Positions 7,167 to 22,928 of a DNA stretch of 38,788 bases are shown here, one piece after another (positions within the stretch are counted from its first letter, which is position 1; the number at the start of each line of letters is the position of its first letter). The notes beneath the pieces were generated by a model. That model was not told the origin of the DNA. It saw nothing but the letters and a program-made list of their open reading frames with translations, and did not search any database. The translations under genes were made by a program, and so were the position numbers. The DNA lies in IMG/VR virus record IMGVR_UViG_3300025679_000014, positions 1 to 38,788 of that record; one strand, 5' to 3'. This DNA comes from a virus.

Positions 7167-8090
7167 ATGCTAGTTCAACAAGACGTAGTCGTCGATCCAG
7201 CGCTTTCCAATGTGTCAATCAAATACGCCAATGATACCTTCATTGCCGACTTGATTTTCCCGATGGTAAAAGTGGCAAAACAGACCGGCAAATACTACAT
7301 TTACGACAAATCAAACCTGCGCATTGATTCAACAACCCGCGCAGCCGGTTCAGGAGCCAACGAAGTGGACTTCGGAGTAGCGCCATCAGGAACATTCGCT
7401 TGCGACGACCACGCACTGAAAGGATTTATTTCCGACGAAGTGCAAGACCAGGCCGACGCAGCGTTGAACCCGTTGGTAGACGAAACGGAAACCGTAACGG
7501 AAAAATTGCTCTTAGACCGTGAGCAGAAATTAGCCACGCTGATCCGCAGCACCGCCACCCTGACAAACAACACCACGTTGTCCGGAACGAGCCAGTGGAG
7601 CGATTACACCAACTCAGACCCGATTGGAGATATCCGCACCGGCCGAAGCACCGTTCACCAGAACACCTTCAAAAAGCCGAACACCCTGATCATGGGAAAG
7701 CAGGTATTTGACATTTTGGCCGAACACCCTCAAATCATCGAGCGCGTAAAGTACAGCCAGCTCGGAGTTTTGACGGAAGAATTGCTGGCCAGAATCTTCC
7801 AGGTTCAAACCATCCTGGTAGGAGAAGCCGGAAGCAACACCGCACACGAAGGACAGACCGACAGTCTCTCATACATCTGGGGAAAGGACGCTATCCTAGC
7901 ATTCATCGCTCCTCAAGTACGGTTGAAGCAAGTAACCCTCGGTTACACCTTCACCTACAGCCAACGCATTGTGAAGCGCTGGAGGGACGAAGATAGAGAG
8001 GGCACCTACGTGAGAATCGGAAACGACAACTACGTTCAAAAAGTAGTATCAGTCGGCGCCGGTTACCTCATCGTCGCAGCAGTAGCCTAG
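7167..8090 (+). CDS. Major capsid protein
   Basis: A 307-aa protein following protease and cement genes. It resembles Mu/B3-like major capsid proteins: FIADLIFPMVKVAKQTGKYY near the N-terminus, then a region around FISDEVQDQADAAL and EKLLLDREQKLA, and a C-terminal strand-rich part (KQVTLGYTFTYSQRIVKRW). An HK97 fold is expected from family knowledge and cannot be shown from sequence alone. The gene is followed by a strongly structured intergenic element. Confidence 0.87.
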   Translation: MLVQQDVVVDPALSNVSIKYANDTFIADLIFPMVKVAKQTGKYYIYDKSNLRIDSTTRAAGSGANEVDFGVAPSGTFACDDHALKGFISDEVQDQADAALNPLVDETETVTEKLLLDREQKLATLIRSTATLTNNTTLSGTSQWSDYTNSDPIGDIRTGRSTVHQNTFKKPNTLIMGKQVFDILAEHPQIIERVKYSQLGVLTEELLARIFQVQTILVGEAGSNTAHEGQTDSLSYIWGKDAILAFIAPQVRLKQVTLGYTFTYSQRIVKRWRDEDREGTYVRIGNDNYVQKVVSVGAGYLIVAAVA

Positions 8091-8102: not shown

Positions 8103-8172
8103 GAGCTTGCCATCGTTTTCCTGGCAACACGAAAACGATGGCAGCCGGGGATCGAATCCAAGGCCACAGCTC
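8103..8172 (+). ncRNA. Three-way-junction RNA structure downstream of capsid gene
   Basis: The gap after the capsid gene folds as a junction. The closing stem pairs GAGCT (8103-8107) with AGCTC (8168-8172). A perfect 12-bp arm pairs 8109-8120 (GCCATCGTTTTC) with 8131-8142 around a 10-nt loop. A second arm pairs GCC 8144-8146 with GGC 8162-8164, then GGAT 8149-8152 with ATCC 8156-8159. The second arm carries a T-loop-like GATCGAATC, but there is no anticodon arm or 7-bp acceptor, so it is not a normal tRNA. No U-tract follows, so it is not a standard terminator. It may protect or process the capsid mRNA, or be a separate RNA. Confidence 0.55.
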
Positions 8173-16280: not shown

Positions 16281-16304
16281 GCCGGGGGCAGCAATGTCCC
16301 CGGC
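16281..16304 (+). other. GC-rich hairpin between tail tube and chaperone genes
   Basis: GCCGGGG (16281-16287) pairs with CCCCGGC (16298-16304) around a 10-nt loop. The hairpin is followed by A-rich sequence and the next ATG, with no U-tract, so it is not a typical intrinsic terminator in the + direction. It could stabilise mRNA ends or lower expression of the chaperone relative to the tube protein. Confidence 0.6.
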
Positions 16305-16865: not shown

Positions 16866-19653
16866 CGACAATTCACTAAGCATCGTAGTGCAGCTGCAGG
16901 ATGAAGCCAGCGCGGGTTTAAAGACGCTGGCAAACAACCTGGACTCAATGGGCCAGACGGTAGGAAACGCGGCCGCGACAGTAGGGCAAAAGTTATCCGC
17001 CATGGGGTCTATTTTGACGTCCACCGGAGAAAACATGACCTACGCCGGCCAGAGGATGACGGTGGGTTTGACCGTGCCGCTGGTAGCATTGGGAACGCTG
17101 GCGATGACATCGGCGAACGATTTTCAGGCTGCCATGCTGAAAGTGCAGACGGGAGCCGGAGCAAGCGCAGCGGAAGTGAAGAACATGTCGCAGGAGATTC
17201 TAAACATGGCCTTAAATGGGGCGCAGCAAACCCCGCTGGAAATAGCCAATGGGCTTTATTATGTAGAATCGGCAGGATTTCGCGGAACCGACGCCATGAA
17301 TGTTTTAAAGTCGGCCATGGAAGGGGCCGACGTAAGCGGGACGGATTTGAATACGGTGGCCCAGCAGCTCGTGACCGTAATGAACGCGACGCACAGCGCC
17401 ACCAGCGACTCGCAGAACGTGATGGCCTTGTTGAACGCGACGGTGGGTCAAGGTGTAATGACCATGAACGATTTAATCGGAGCCATGGGCACGGGAATTA
17501 TTCCAAAAGCTGAGTCGGCCGGATTGGGAATCAACGACGTGGCAGCAGCCTTGGATACGATGACCAGGGAAGGCATCCCTGCACAGCAGGCCGCAACAAG
17601 GGTAGGCTTAATGTTTTCTCAGCTCTCATCGCCATCAGCGACCGCCCAGAAAGCGTTTGCAACCATAGGATTGAGTCAAACCGATCTCGCCAACACTATG
17701 CGAAAGGAGGGACTTATCCCTGCACTGCAACAACTCGAGAGTCACCTGACAAAAACAGGTTTGACCGCGGTGCAACAAAACGACGTGCTATCCAAAGCGT
17801 TCGGTGGAGGCAGATCGTCGGGAGCCATTGAAACGCTGCTGCAAAACTTAGACCAAATGCAAACCGCCTTCAACGGGCTGGCCGGCGGCACCGCGCAGTT
17901 CTCCGGGTACGTTCAAGCGCAAGGAGAAACGACCGCGGCGTACTTTGCGCGCATGAAGGCGGCCGCATCAGCAGCCAGCATTGAAATAGGAAACGCCATG
18001 ATGCCATTGGAAGCGCAGGTTTTCCCGATTTTGGCTAAGGCAATCGAAGACGTAGCGAACTGGTTCTCAAAGTTGAGCCCATTTTGGCAGGATTTTATTA
18101 TTATATTCGCAGCCGGAGCAGCGATACTAGGGCCGGTTATTTACGGAATAGGCGCGGTGCTTATAGCATTCGGCACTATATTCTCGGGACTGGGGGCGGT
18201 TGTAACGTTCTTTTTTGGAACCGCAGCCACGGAAGCCGCCGTAGCGGCTGTGTCAATCGATGCAAGCGCGGGAGCATTCGCTTTTCTCGGAGGGGTAGTA
18301 TCAGACTTATGGGTATCTTTTATTGCCGGCGGCCCAATTGTGTGGGCGATCGTCGCGGCCGTGGTGGCGCTGGCGGCCATAGCGTACATAGTGTATGAAA
18401 ACTGGAGTACTTTTGCGCCGTTTTTTGACGGAATGTGGACAGCCATAAAGAGCACTTTTATAAACTCAATTTCAGCGATCAGCGGCTTCGTTGCGTCGTC
18501 ATGGAACTCGATAAAATCGGTGACGGAAGCAACGTGGGGGGGAATAAAAAGCACTTTCAACGACCTGAGCAATGGTTCCAAGGCGGAACTTGCTTCCAAT
18601 AAGACGTTTTTATCTGATTTGAGCGCTGGTACGAAGGCAGAACTGAATTCCAATAAGACGTTTTTAACGAATACGGTTAGTGGCATGCAGGCAGAACTGA
18701 ATTCCAATAAGACGTTTTTGTCAAACCTGTGGAGTGCTATAGCAGACGGCGCAGGAGTGGCGTGGAAAGGCATCGAAGCGGTTTTCCAATTCGCGCTGGA
18801 CTTGATCGTTGGCCTGGTAGTTGATGCCTTCGGTCTGATGGGAATAAACATCGTGCAGGTTTTCCAGTCGTCCATTAACTTCCTGAAGACAAGCTGGGCG
18901 ACAGTTCAAGCCGTATTTTCAGCGTCCCTGAATTTTATAGAAAACCTATGGAAAACATCATGGAGCATGGTAGGTTCCGTCCTGACGGCCTTGTGGAACT
19001 CGATGGTTAATTTCTTGAAACAGCAATGGCTGATGATTCAAACGGGTTTTTCAGATTTGCTATCGTTTGTTGAAAACTCATGGAGTACCCTATGGAATAA
19101 CACGGTGGCAGTTTTGACTACGGCTTGGGCGAAAGTAAAATCAATAGTAGGCGACGGATGGACTTGGATGGTTGCGCAGTTTGAAATGTACCGAGCGCCA
19201 CTGACGAATGCGTGGAACTCTCTATGGGATGGACTGACTTCAGGAGTGACCGCCGCATGGCAGGTGGTGGAAGCGACCATCGTTACTTCAATAAATTGGA
19301 TTGTAGATAAAATAAACGTAATGATCACCGCGGTAAATTCAGTCGCGGCAAAAGGAGCATCGGTCGTCGGAGCAAAGGCCCCGCAAATTCCACTGGTACC
19401 GGACATCGCCCTGGCTGACGGAGGCATCGTAACAAGCCCTACAATAGCTTTAATCGGAGAAGCCGGGCCGGAAGCCGTCATTCCCCTTTCGGGCGCAGGG
19501 GGAGGCATCACAGGGGCAGCAGGGAACGGTGGAGTGGTAATCAACATCAACAATCCTGTGGTGCGGAACCAAAGCGACCTGCAGGCCATGCGGAAAATGA
19601 TAGACCAGACCCTCCGGCCGCTTTTGGTAAACGCAAAACTAATCCACATCTAG
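16858..19653 (+). CDS. Tail tape measure protein (TP901/PhageMin_Tail type)
   Basis: The longest gene (931 aa) directly after the chaperone pair. Residues ~90-400 resemble the TP901 tape-measure core: ANDFQAAMLKVQTGAGASAAE, IANGLYYVESAGFRG, VTVMNATHSATSDSQNV, AFGGGRSSGAIETLL. Hydrophobic segments near residues 415-510 (IIFAAGAAILGPVIYGIGAV; AIVAAVVALAAIAYIVYE) may insert in the host membrane during DNA entry. Three tandem 18-aa repeats lie at residues 574-627. The C-terminus has the common ADGGIVTSPTIALIGEAG and EAVIPLSG motif. By the usual length scaling of about 0.15 nm per residue the tail would be near 140 nm. The start overlaps the end of the GT frame. Confidence 0.94.
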   Translation: MADDNSLSIVVQLQDEASAGLKTLANNLDSMGQTVGNAAATVGQKLSAMGSILTSTGENMTYAGQRMTVGLTVPLVALGTLAMTSANDFQAAMLKVQTGAGASAAEVKNMSQEILNMALNGAQQTPLEIANGLYYVESAGFRGTDAMNVLKSAMEGADVSGTDLNTVAQQLVTVMNATHSATSDSQNVMALLNATVGQGVMTMNDLIGAMGTGIIPKAESAGLGINDVAAALDTMTREGIPAQQAATRVGLMFSQLSSPSATAQKAFATIGLSQTDLANTMRKEGLIPALQQLESHLTKTGLTAVQQNDVLSKAFGGGRSSGAIETLLQNLDQMQTAFNGLAGGTAQFSGYVQAQGETTAAYFARMKAAASAASIEIGNAMMPLEAQVFPILAKAIEDVANWFSKLSPFWQDFIIIFAAGAAILGPVIYGIGAVLIAFGTIFSGLGAVVTFFFGTAATEAAVAAVSIDASAGAFAFLGGVVSDLWVSFIAGGPIVWAIVAAVVALAAIAYIVYENWSTFAPFFDGMWTAIKSTFINSISAISGFVASSWNSIKSVTEATWGGIKSTFNDLSNGSKAELASNKTFLSDLSAGTKAELNSNKTFLTNTVSGMQAELNSNKTFLSNLWSAIADGAGVAWKGIEAVFQFALDLIVGLVVDAFGLMGINIVQVFQSSINFLKTSWATVQAVFSASLNFIENLWKTSWSMVGSVLTALWNSMVNFLKQQWLMIQTGFSDLLSFVENSWSTLWNNTVAVLTTAWAKVKSIVGDGWTWMVAQFEMYRAPLTNAWNSLWDGLTSGVTAAWQVVEATIVTSINWIVDKINVMITAVNSVAAKGASVVGAKAPQIPLVPDIALADGGIVTSPTIALIGEAGPEAVIPLSGAGGGITGAAGNGGVVININNPVVRNQSDLQAMRKMIDQTLRPLLVNAKLIHI
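18577..18738 (+). repeat. Three tandem 54-bp repeats in the tape measure gene
   Basis: Units 18577-18630, 18631-18684 and 18685-18738 each encode 18 residues with a shared core AEL-(A/N)-SNKTFL. Units 2 and 3 share an identical stretch from GGCAGAACTGAATTCC through AATAAGACGTTTTT; unit 1 is diverged. A recent in-frame duplication that lengthens the tape measure is the simplest reading. Confidence 0.85.
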
Positions 19654-19656
19654 CCC

Positions 19657-21204
19657 ATGAGTACGCTCACGCTGACAATCGGAGGGGTTGACTTCATGCC
19701 GCGCTACGTTACCGGCACCGCGCAGATAACCTCCCAAATCCAAAACCAGGGCGACACGCTGGACATCACCCTGAACATCAAGAAAGGCCAGACGCCGCCA
19801 ACGGCAGGCCAAGAGATTATTTTCAAAGACGGCAGCCGAACACTGTTCGGCGGTTTTATTACGAAGATGACGCCGACCGAAATCGGCGCCGGCGAGCTAA
19901 TCAGTTTCGCCATTGAAGCGACCGACTACACCTACATTTTAATCAACAAAACGGTGCAGGGCGCCTACACCGACTGGACGCTTTATGAAATAGTAACCGA
20001 CATCATCACCAACGACATCGACTCCAGGTACGGCATAAGCTACGCAGGAGTTTCGGCAATCAGTCCGCCCATCCTTTCGACCGTAACCTTCAACCACACG
20101 ACCATCAGGCAGGCATTCGAAACATTAGCCAAGCTGACCGGCTGCATCTGGTGGATGGGATACGACAAGGTGGTTTATTTCATAAGCCCAACTCAAGCCC
20201 TGCCAGCCCCGGAGCAAATAACCGACACCAGCAAAAACTGGATTGAAGGCATGCAGATTTCAGTGGACGTGACTCAGGTAAAAAACGACATCGTAGTGCT
20301 GGGCGGAACGAGCGAGAGCGCGGCCTACACTCAAGAAATAAAATGCGACGGCGTGGCCCGAGAGTGGGTTTTGCTTTACCCCGTCCAAACCATGCAAGAA
20401 GTAGACCTAGACAGCGGCTCGGGGTACGTCACGAAAACATTTGGTGTTGACCCCGTAGACGATGAAACGCTTTACTATTCGGTTTACTCGCCGACGCGCG
20501 GATCAATCAGGGTGGGAAGCGGAACGACAACCCCGGCGTCCGGCTACAAGATAAAAGTGAAATACACCTATCCGGTGCCCATTATTACGGAAGTAAAAGA
20601 CGCAACCAGCATCATAGCCATGCAGGCGCTGGAAGGCGGCGACGGCATCCACAAGGACACCATAAGCGACCCGACCATAACCTCCCAAGACCAGGCAGTA
20701 ATTCAGGCGCTCACGGAGCTGCTGGCTTTTTCATTCCCGATTTTATCAGGGGAGTTTCAAACGCGCACCGGACTGCTGACAAAGCCGGGATTCTTTGCCG
20801 CGGGCCAAGCGATAACCGTATACCTGCCGAGCTGGGGGATTTCAGGCAGCACCGTCTACATCGTCCAAAAAATAGTAACCACGCTGGCGGAAAGCGGCAG
20901 CAGCATCGAATACTTCTACGACATCACCTTCGGCGGCCGCCTGATCGGAGTCCTGGACTTTTTGCAGGCATTGGCCGAACCGCAAACGCCCATGGACACA
21001 TCCGGATTGCTTCAAAAAGTGCTGTCGCTGGCCGACGTGGTAACGACCGCCGAGACGATAACGCAAAACGGCAACGAGAAGACCGACAACGAAACCGTAA
21101 CGACGGCCGAGACAATAGCCATGGCGCTTTTCACGCCGCCGTACAAATGGCAGACCGACCCGGGAGCAACCACCGCCTACTGGAACCTGGCTCAATGGGG
21201 TTGA
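19657..21204 (+). CDS. Tail hub/distal tail (baseplate) protein
   Basis: A 515-aa protein starting 3 nt after the tape measure, the place of the distal-tail or hub gene. The N-terminal part is strand-rich (TLTIGGVDFMPRYVTGTAQI; LDITLNIKKGQTPPTAGQEI). The centre (FNHTTIRQAFETLAKLTGC, WWMGYDKVVYFISP) resembles hub proteins that form the base of the tail tube. The C-terminal ~60 residues include two VTTAETI repeats and end in a Trp-rich tail. No peptidoglycan hydrolase motif is visible. A promoter and an unrelated cassette follow. Confidence 0.75.
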   Translation: MSTLTLTIGGVDFMPRYVTGTAQITSQIQNQGDTLDITLNIKKGQTPPTAGQEIIFKDGSRTLFGGFITKMTPTEIGAGELISFAIEATDYTYILINKTVQGAYTDWTLYEIVTDIITNDIDSRYGISYAGVSAISPPILSTVTFNHTTIRQAFETLAKLTGCIWWMGYDKVVYFISPTQALPAPEQITDTSKNWIEGMQISVDVTQVKNDIVVLGGTSESAAYTQEIKCDGVAREWVLLYPVQTMQEVDLDSGSGYVTKTFGVDPVDDETLYYSVYSPTRGSIRVGSGTTTPASGYKIKVKYTYPVPIITEVKDATSIIAMQALEGGDGIHKDTISDPTITSQDQAVIQALTELLAFSFPILSGEFQTRTGLLTKPGFFAAGQAITVYLPSWGISGSTVYIVQKIVTTLAESGSSIEYFYDITFGGRLIGVLDFLQALAEPQTPMDTSGLLQKVLSLADVVTTAETITQNGNEKTDNETVTTAETIAMALFTPPYKWQTDPGATTAYWNLAQWG

Positions 21205-21207
21205 CGG

Positions 21208-21236
21208 TTGTTTGAAAAATCAGAGGGTGCTATAAT
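21208..21236 (+). promoter_or_regulatory. Extended -10 promoter of the SD cassette
   Basis: TTGTTT (21208-21213), 17-nt spacer, TATAAT (21231-21236) with TG at 21228-21229. It closely matches the promoter at 5440-5468, including GGTGCTATAATT. Predicted start is near 21243, just before a long inverted repeat, so it should make the structured leader and the four downstream genes. Confidence 0.75.
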
Positions 21237-21242
21237 TGCTTA

Positions 21243-21535
21243 ATAGTCGCTTGCGGGGTGGGAGTTAGCGCGCGTCTAGTAATCCTAGGATTAGGATTCC
21301 CACCCCGCAGCCGATTAAAAAACCTCGCACCTGCAATAGGATATAGCGAGGCGAAAAACAGAGAGGTTTTATCTTTAAGGCATACAAGGTTCGGGAGGCA
21401 TAAAATCCCTGTTTGTATACATAGACGTCGTTGTAGAATCAAAATCCTTACAACCAGTCGGTTCAGGAAGGGGATTGCGTTCACCAATCTCCGTCCTCAG
21501 CCGATTGCAGCACCTTTCAAACAAAGGAGTTATCC
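21243..21535 (+). ncRNA. Structured ~290-nt leader or ncRNA upstream of HNH gene
   Basis: No convincing gene here. A perfect 12-bp stem pairs 21252-21263 (TGCGGGGTGGGA) with 21298-21309; its loop holds the palindrome AATCCTAGGATT (21281-21292). Next, CCTCGC (from 21323) can pair with GCGAGG (ending 21352), while the overlapping AAAACCTC can instead pair with GAGGTTTT near 21363-21370, so two exclusive folds exist, as in attenuators or riboswitches. Further stems pair ATACAAG with TTTGTAT (21383-21418 region) and GTTGTA with TACAAC (21430-21453 region). Last, CCTTT (21513-21517) pairs with AAAGG (21523-21527), masking the SD of the HNH gene. CAGCCGATT occurs at 21308 and 21498. Confidence 0.6.
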
Positions 21536-21769
21536 GTGGGTAAAAAAGGCAAACAACGCCGCAAGTACGGAACGGACACTCATCACGTCTTTCCCCGATC
21601 GCAATACCCGCAGCTACGCAACGAACCGTGGAATCAGGTAACGGTCAACGCTCGTCAGCACGCCTTGTATCATCAGCTTTTTTCCAACCGAAACCCCGAG
21701 GAGATACTCGATTTCCTTCTGGCGAACTTTTGGAACGGCATGATTTTTCTACCAAGGAGAATCAAATGA
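21536..21769 (+). CDS. Small HNH endonuclease-like protein
   Basis: A 77-aa basic protein starting at GTG 21536, chosen because a strong SD (AAAGGAG, 21523-21529) sits 6 nt upstream. It shows HNH-like residues: THHVFPRSQYP, then an Asn in WNQVTV and His residues in RQHALYHQLF, followed by PEEILDFL. Such short His-rich proteins occur in bacterial and phage genomes; nuclease activity is inferred. No separate DNA-binding or RuvC-like domain is present. The SD is sequestered in a small hairpin, so translation may be controlled. The stop overlaps the next start (ATGA). Confidence 0.65.
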   Translation: MGKKGKQRRKYGTDTHHVFPRSQYPQLRNEPWNQVTVNARQHALYHQLFSNRNPEEILDFLLANFWNGMIFLPRRIK

Positions 21770-21942
21770 AACCAAAGCGTCACTTCTTGGAGGAAGAATA
21801 CCTAGACGACACCGCAGACATCAGTTCACTGTGGCGCAAGCTAATGTGGCTTACCTACACCACCGACCCGAGCAGGCGAGTAGTTGTTCTCATTTTGGAG
21901 GAGGAAATCAACCAACAGGAGGGAGAATGTCATGGCAAGTAA
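21766..21942 (+). CDS. 58-aa acidic hypothetical protein of the SD cassette
   Basis: Starts at ATG 21766, overlapping the HNH stop (ATGA), with AAGGAGA 7 nt upstream. The frame stays open upstream, but this SD and overlap fix the start. The product is acidic at the N-terminus (FLEEEYLDDTADISSLWRKL) with a hydrophobic strand VVVLILEEEI. No recognised domain. Its 3' end overlaps the next small gene. Confidence 0.6.
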   Translation: MKPKRHFLEEEYLDDTADISSLWRKLMWLTYTTDPSRRVVVLILEEEINQQEGECHGK

Positions 21943-22060
21943 CTGGAGACTGTTGTTGTTCCCCTTCTGGCTGGTGCTGGTAGTGATGTTCGTTGCGGCG
22001 ATGGTGGTTGTTCGTCTTTTCGTGGAGGCAAAGTATTACTTCACAAGGAGGTTGCGATGA
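21932..22060 (+). CDS. 42-aa single-pass membrane protein of the SD cassette
   Basis: From ATG 21932 to TGA 22058-22060, overlapping the previous gene by 11 nt and the next by 4 (ATGA). A GGAGGGAG SD lies upstream inside the previous gene. Residues ~7-31 form a hydrophobic helix (LLLFPFWLVLVVMFVAAMVV), followed by a basic tail (YYFTRRLR), so the N-terminus likely faces outside. It could be a small membrane effector or holin-like peptide; function unknown. Confidence 0.55.
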   Translation: MASNWRLLLFPFWLVLVVMFVAAMVVVRLFVEAKYYFTRRLR

Positions 22061-22275
22061 AAGAGTACGATGTTATCAAAACATTCTACATCTACAACGT
22101 GGAGGACTCGGAAGATGCGGAGACAGAAATCAGGAGAGCGATGCAGACTGCACGCCTATCTAAAACGCCTCTCCGCATTGAGATTGCCCAGAAGATGGAA
22201 GAAGGTCAAACGATGACGTTCCACCCGGCCGAAGCCGCCACAGAAAACCCCTACGAAGGCCATCACGACCAGTGA
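22057..22275 (+). CDS. 72-aa hypothetical protein closing the SD cassette
   Basis: Starts at ATG 22057 inside the previous stop (ATGA) with AAGGAGG 6 nt upstream. The product (DVIKTFYIYNVEDSEDAETE, RRAMQTARLSKTPLRIEIAQ) looks like a small alpha/beta protein with a disordered C-terminal tail. No function assigned. Followed by a hairpin with a short T-rich stretch, which closes the cassette. Confidence 0.6.
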   Translation: MKEYDVIKTFYIYNVEDSEDAETEIRRAMQTARLSKTPLRIEIAQKMEEGQTMTFHPAEAATENPYEGHHDQ

Positions 22276-22290
22276 TAGCAACCCCGCACT

Positions 22291-22320
22291 GCACGCGTGC
22301 GTAATCGCGTGCCCATTTTA
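22291..22320 (+). terminator. Weak terminator-like hairpin after the SD cassette
   Basis: GCACGC (22291-22296) pairs with GCGTGC (22307-22312), followed by CCATTTTA. The stem is short and the T-run imperfect, but its position 15 nt after the last cassette stop supports a terminator. Confidence 0.4.
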
Positions 22321-22337
22321 CAAATTACAAAAAAACC

Positions 22338-22928
22338 ATGAACCAACTCGCCGAGCAAATGGAAATTAAAGGAGTGCATATTTTTACGCGCTACAACACG
22401 GAGAGCGCCGAAGCAAAACAGCTGGCGGAAGAAATTCAGGCGCACTCCCAAAAATACCGCGCCTGCAAAACCGCAGCGGAGCAAGCCGAGCACTACATCA
22501 CCTACAAAAACCTGACCGAGAAGTTGGCGAAGTTTCAGGTAGGCGAAAAAATAGTGCGCAACATTGTAGTGACCGCCGGCCGTTCCGTTTTGGCCCAGCG
22601 ATTAGCCAACACCACCACCTACACTGGAGTGATAAACTACGGAGCATTGGGAACCGCCAGCACCGCGCCGACGAACGCCGACACGCAACTGGGGACGGAA
22701 GTATTCCGCAAGACGGTAGCCAGCGCCAGTTTTACCACCAACAACGCATTTATAGATTTCTTTTTTACCGCCGCAGACTGCAACGGAACCTACAACGAGT
22801 TCGGCACATTCATTGACGGCAGCGGAACCGCAAACAGCGGCCAAATGTTCACGCACGCCCTGACCGGGGGATGGACGAAAACGAGCACAGAAACAATGAC
22901 GGTATCCTGTCAATACACCCTTTCGTAG
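22338..22928 (+). CDS. Putative tail tip/virion protein
   Basis: A 196-aa protein. The first ~75 residues are helical and charged (YNTESAEAKQLAEEIQAHSQ); the rest is strand-rich and resembles phage tail-tip proteins: NIVVTAGRSVLAQRL, TYTGVINYGALGTAS, FTTNNAFIDFFFTAAD. The pattern, AQRLA then NYGALGT, recurs in siphovirus baseplate-periphery proteins. It restarts the tail region after the SD cassette, which seems to have been inserted between hub and tip genes. Start is AAAAAACCATG without SD. Confidence 0.65.
   Translation: MNQLAEQMEIKGVHIFTRYNTESAEAKQLAEEIQAHSQKYRACKTAAEQAEHYITYKNLTEKLAKFQVGEKIVRNIVVTAGRSVLAQRLANTTTYTGVINYGALGTASTAPTNADTQLGTEVFRKTVASASFTTNNAFIDFFFTAADCNGTYNEFGTFIDGSGTANSGQMFTHALTGGWTKTSTETMTVSCQYTLS

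Follow-up and report, generated by a model that had tools for sequence, protein, structure and literature searches.

RNA structures that sequester the ribosome binding site (RBS) precede several homing endonuclease genes of phages, namely I-TevI, I-TevII, I-TevIII and segB of T4 and mobE of Aeh1 (PMC2988022, PMC3014915). In seg43(25) of Aeromonas phage 25, by contrast, a very stable hairpin lies just upstream of the RBS and leaves it uncovered (PMC2988022). The locus described here has features of both arrangements. Like the T4 and Aeh1 genes, it consists of an HNH or GIY-YIG gene, here HNH, set among conserved phage genes, with structure around its start and with phage promoters (PMC2988022, PMC3014915); like seg43(25), it has a stable hairpin upstream of the RBS of the inserted nuclease gene that does not cover the RBS (PMC2988022). 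It differs from the former in that a 290-nt chain of hairpins, with weak and non-distinctive pairing of the Shine-Dalgarno (SD) sequence, takes the place of one RBS-sequestering hairpin, and in that the protein has only 77 aa, its homing being putative. It differs from the latter, a GIY-YIG gene with a single hairpin, again in the 290-nt hairpin chain.

The window, that is, the whole stretch of DNA analysed, comprises 38,788 nucleotides (positions 1 to 38,788 of IMG/VR virus record IMGVR_UViG_3300025679_000014), and the leader under study spans 21243-21535 (Table 1). Relatives were gathered by scanning with p196, the conserved gene downstream, which yielded 32 loci. The tail gene (19657-21204) and p196 are directly adjacent in the 29 kin contigs that hold both genes (not all of them independent, some being nearly identical to each other), and the gaps between the two are too small for a comparable insert. 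Only in the window and in one identical contig are they 1.1 kb apart, the space being filled, in order, by the leader, the 77-aa HNH gene and three small ORFs. Both genes flanking the insert are intact, and its left edge falls at approximately the predicted transcription start. Moron-type phage insertions likewise put additional genes between two that are neighbours in relatives; unlike those, the present insert did not carry in its promoter, which is ancestral, and it has no clear terminator.

Table 1. Features of the insert and its surroundings, in window coordinates
Feature	Position	Strand	Remarks
Ancestral promoter: weak -35-like TTGTTT (21208-21213); extended -10 TGCTATAAT, TATAAT (21231-21236)	21208-21236	+	Predicted start about 21243
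Structured non-coding 5' leader	21243-21535	+	z -5.2; non-coding by codon usage in six frames; ORFs without protein relatives
HP1, ~22 bp, starting at the predicted transcription start	21244-21317	+	-40.1 kcal/mol
HP2, CCTCGC/GCGAGG (21323-21328/21346-21351)	21323-21351	+	-10.8 kcal/mol; pair probability 0.99
HP3, ATACAA/TTGTAT, moderate	21382-21418	+	-9.4 kcal/mol alone; absent from some predicted ensembles
HP4, base common to HP1 (AGTCGnTT/CAGCCGATT)	21455-21507	+	-28.8 kcal/mol
Weak hairpin CCTTT/AAAGG (21513-21517/21523-21527) and HNH SD AAGGAG (21524-21529)	21513-21529	+	-2.7 kcal/mol
Small HNH protein, 77 aa, GTG start	21536-21769	+	PHROG HNH/homing endonuclease families, E 8e-7 to 1e-6
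58-aa ORF, start overlapping the HNH stop (ATGA)	21766-21942	+	Strong SD AAGGAG; no family
42-aa ORF, hydrophobic, likely membrane peptide	21932-22060	+	SD AGGAGG; no family
72-aa ORF	22057-22275	+	SD AAGGAGGT; relative only in the identical contig
Small GC hairpin, right end of insert, then CCATTTTAC	22291-22312	+	-12.8 kcal/mol; not called as terminator
p196, next conserved phage gene, PHROG 5417	22338-22928	+	Abuts the tail gene in relatives

The promoter that the initial annotation had placed at 21208 was borne out in part: the position of TATAAT and the extended -10 form are conserved in relatives, but the -35 element (TTGTTT, 21208) is poor and a strict promoter scan returned none. The extended -10, TGnTATAAT, lies 29 nt past the tail-gene stop in the window and 28 nt past it in two relatives (L008 and L009), in which it directly precedes p196, and a TATAAT near the p196 start is also found ahead of the p196 homologue in L012, L014, L024 and L037. 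Since the relatives use the same element for p196, the promoter -10 predates the insert. The 5' UTR of p196 would be only about 11 nt in L008 and L009, making this transcript nearly leaderless.

The HNH catalytic motif is present in the 77-aa protein as an HH-(x)-N-(x)-H-x3-H pattern. Its best tblastn matches in phages include MobE-type homing endonucleases, and the best named relatives are MobE-like. No Pfam domain and no evident DNA-recognition domain were found in it, its structure prediction was poor and of low confidence, and searches of solved structures and NCBIfam returned nothing relevant. As expected of a free-standing HNH homing endonuclease gene (mob type), the gene separates two genes that are neighbours in related phages. 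Further HNH genes stand at other junctions of the kin gene cluster (L008 4599-5204, 201 aa, separating p196 from the next gene; L009 1337-1852, 171 aa, before the tail gene; L037 6742-7026), a pattern to be expected where such genes have invaded a region. The HNH gene is probably a mobile, selfish gene, and homing by its 77-aa product, with cutting of insert-free alleles close to the site and spread through recombination, is putative. A relative of the small HNH protein in L037 has 94 aa and lacks a structured leader, and a C-terminal relic of a related small HNH protein occurs in a Candidatus Electronema genome (L003 5001-5054).

The structured non-coding leader that had been proposed ahead of the HNH gene was upheld, the fold being far beyond chance. 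Its predicted energy was -104.6 kcal/mol, compared to a mean of -78.5 over 100 shuffles (z -5.2; the folded stretch ran to 21545), and z was still -3.4 when the first hairpin was left out; among 131 genome tiles of 300 nt, the leader was the most extreme for folding. These values come from thermodynamic models of the RNA alone, without proteins or co-transcriptional effects. All sequence matches given in the initial annotation were found again. Its perfect 12-bp stem, TGCGGGGTGGGA/TCCCACCCCGCA (21252-21263/21298-21309), forms part of the longer HP1, and its "two more stems" include the strong hairpin HP4. Coding, which had been named as the finding that would speak against a structured leader, was rejected, as all six frames score as non-coding under the codon usage of the phage and neither overlapping ORF has relatives in PHROGs, nor has the 127-aa one any in phage genomes by tblastn.

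Other stretches of the window also fold or repeat. The second most structured tile of the genome contains a hairpin at 16281-16304, GCCGGGGGC..GTCCCCGGC, which encloses the ATG at 16294 of the gene just before the tape measure, and the tape-measure gene itself contains diverged tandem copies of a ~54-nt unit (18566-18720, ELNSNKTFL repeats). A very stable hairpin or three-way junction (8103-8172, z -6.1) stands behind the gene at 7167-8090, which its position suggests to be the major capsid gene; in the six relatives that were read (L045, L046, L048, L049, L051 and L052) the corresponding place is occupied by a hairpin of unrelated sequence with no U-tract, weaker in L045.

Homologues of the leader were confined to the window and its identical contig in a distant blastn search of phage records, in scans of IMG/VR for the stem pattern and the base motif, and in a search with a covariance model of HP1 and HP2 over 31 loci and 30 whole records. 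Where other base-motif matches were inspected, they fell within long open frames and seem to be chance occurrences. No independent homologue was found in these collections with which the leader stems could be compared across viruses. A comparison within the leader is nevertheless informative. Of 23 aligned pairs in HP1 and HP4, 13 are identical, 6 show compensatory double differences, 1 a one-sided difference, and 3 are broken in one hairpin; the similarity of the two bases was significant when pairs were permuted (p 0.0026). The window has two copies of the base motif AGTCGnTT...CAGCCGATT, a motif selected post hoc, and none of 100 shuffles contains it. From their sequences, HP1 and HP4 look like paralogues. 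This likeness supports the idea that selection acts on the leader RNA, as evidence internal to one sequence and hence weaker than covariation among independent viruses. We consider it quite unlikely that the leader is a fast-evolving neutral spacer, left by the insertion event and folding well by chance: its occurrence in one virus only and the stable hairpins elsewhere in the intergenic regions of the lineage would suit a spacer, yet the z of -5.2, the two matching hairpins with compensatory differences and the G-U bias would not.

The same two hairpins allow RNA to be weighed against DNA. The two borders of the insert are marked by hairpins, HP1 starting at the left one and a GC hairpin standing at the right one, as might be expected if these were DNA-level palindromes at the edge of a mobile cassette, serving insertion or replication, with the RNA fold as a by-product. 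However, HP1 and HP4 together contain 7 G-U pairs and 0 A-C pairs, and folding is stronger for the sense than for the antisense strand (z -5.7 versus -3.5), both of which favour a sense RNA over a DNA palindrome. With no clear target duplication or transposase at the locus either, the palindrome explanation is unlikely.

The initial annotation had further proposed that the CCTCGC/GCGAGG stem competes with AAAACCTC/GAGGTTTT, located at 21319-21326/21363-21370, and that the leader may thus be a riboswitch or attenuator. CCTC does have two complementary options in the sequence, but the two stems do not compete: their pair probabilities at equilibrium were 0.99 and 0.00, respectively, the alternative, when forced, raised the ensemble energy by 3.7 kcal/mol, and the favoured stem is also the first to form during transcription. 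We found no sense-strand terminator within the leader, including the region between it and the HNH gene, and no terminator stem with a U-tract; nor did an Rfam search of the leader, which had been suggested with HEARO and riboswitch families in mind, match any family, riboswitch classes included. With no bistable fold, we judge a two-state riboswitch or transcription attenuator very unlikely. A switch set by the transcript start was likewise rejected: a 10-nt complement (21208-21217/21515-21524) re-pairs in longer transcripts, and the SD is not freed. The chance expectation for such 10-nt complements in the region is about 0.6 matches (an estimate).

The results of these searches also bear on a separate, structured small RNA, transcribed from the old promoter and acting in trans or with a protein partner of its own, with the HNH gene merely downstream. 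A long multi-hairpin RNA would suit such a role, and the base motif shared by HP1 and HP4 resembles a repeated protein-binding site; against it, no sense-strand terminator separates the leader from the HNH gene, no RNA family was matched, and the element was found in no other virus. We regard a separate small RNA as fairly unlikely. To a guide RNA of the HEARO/IscB type or a group I intron remnant we give almost no credence. A structured RNA does adjoin an HNH gene here, as in HEARO/IscB loci, a likeness noted in the initial annotation, which also pointed out the missing RuvC part; unlike those loci, however, the present one has no HEARO match, no RuvC and no PLMP domain. When searched directly, neither the HEARO model (RF02033) nor the group I intron model (RF00028) gave a match at E up to 10, the 77-aa protein contains neither RuvC nor PLMP, and the flanking genes are intact.

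The claim that the CCTTT/AAAGG hairpin hides the SD of the HNH gene was not confirmed. The hairpin is present, and the model leaves little of the SD unpaired, but the pairing is weak and not distinctive: the probability that the hairpin forms varied from 0.1 to 0.8 with the modelled 5' end, and the unpaired fraction of the SD was 0.15 for the HNH gene versus 0.07, 0.01 and 0.12 for the next three genes, whose SDs are thus equally or more paired.

The insert genes differ from the other phage genes in their SD sequences. Each of the four has one of 6-8 nt (AAGGAG, AAGGAG, AGGAGG and AAGGAGGT), whereas anti-SD matches of at least 6 nt are absent from the 47 other genes in the window; such matches occur at a background rate of 1.4% in random 17-nt stretches of the window, and the native genes of 12 relatives have 0-1 of them per locus. 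Because of this contrast, the cassette looks foreign. Codon usage was rejected as a further sign of a foreign insert, since the phage's other accessory genes have similar scores. The native start context in the phage lineage (the window and L006-L037) is typically ..AAACC-ATG, with no SD. As the native genes lack an SD, the role of the insert SDs in the host is uncertain. One long shot is that the leader is a new RNA element that travels with an SD-dependent cassette in an SD-less phage lineage, its repeated hairpins binding a protein of the cassette or the host and the cassette being translated in a different mode.

The explanation we prefer, at about even odds of being right, is that the leader is a structured, cis-acting 5' UTR of a foreign HNH cassette, inserted behind the ancestral p196 promoter and tuning stability and translation. 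The earlier suggestion that the RNA controls the HNH gene is likely to hold in this cis-acting form, which has published precedent in phage homing endonucleases, but not as a riboswitch or attenuator. The old promoter would give rise to an RNA that opens with the ~22-bp HP1 practically at its 5' end, and HP1 may shield this RNA from 5'-end-dependent decay. The transcript would then continue past HP1 through three or four more hairpins, with HP4 ending about 16 nt before the HNH SD, and these downstream hairpins could embed the region around the HNH start in folded RNA and hold translation of the gene down. The net effect would be control in cis of a probable selfish HNH gene, a role like that of phage homing-endonuclease leaders fulfilled by a different sequence.

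The contrast between an SD-bearing insert and SD-less native genes offers a simple signature by which foreign cassettes can be recognised in such phages, and it raises the question of how the insert genes are translated in them. If the cis-acting explanation is true, the control of intrusive nuclease genes by RNA structure, known mainly from T4-like phages, would extend to a distant, uncultured lineage, where it would take a larger, multi-hairpin form.
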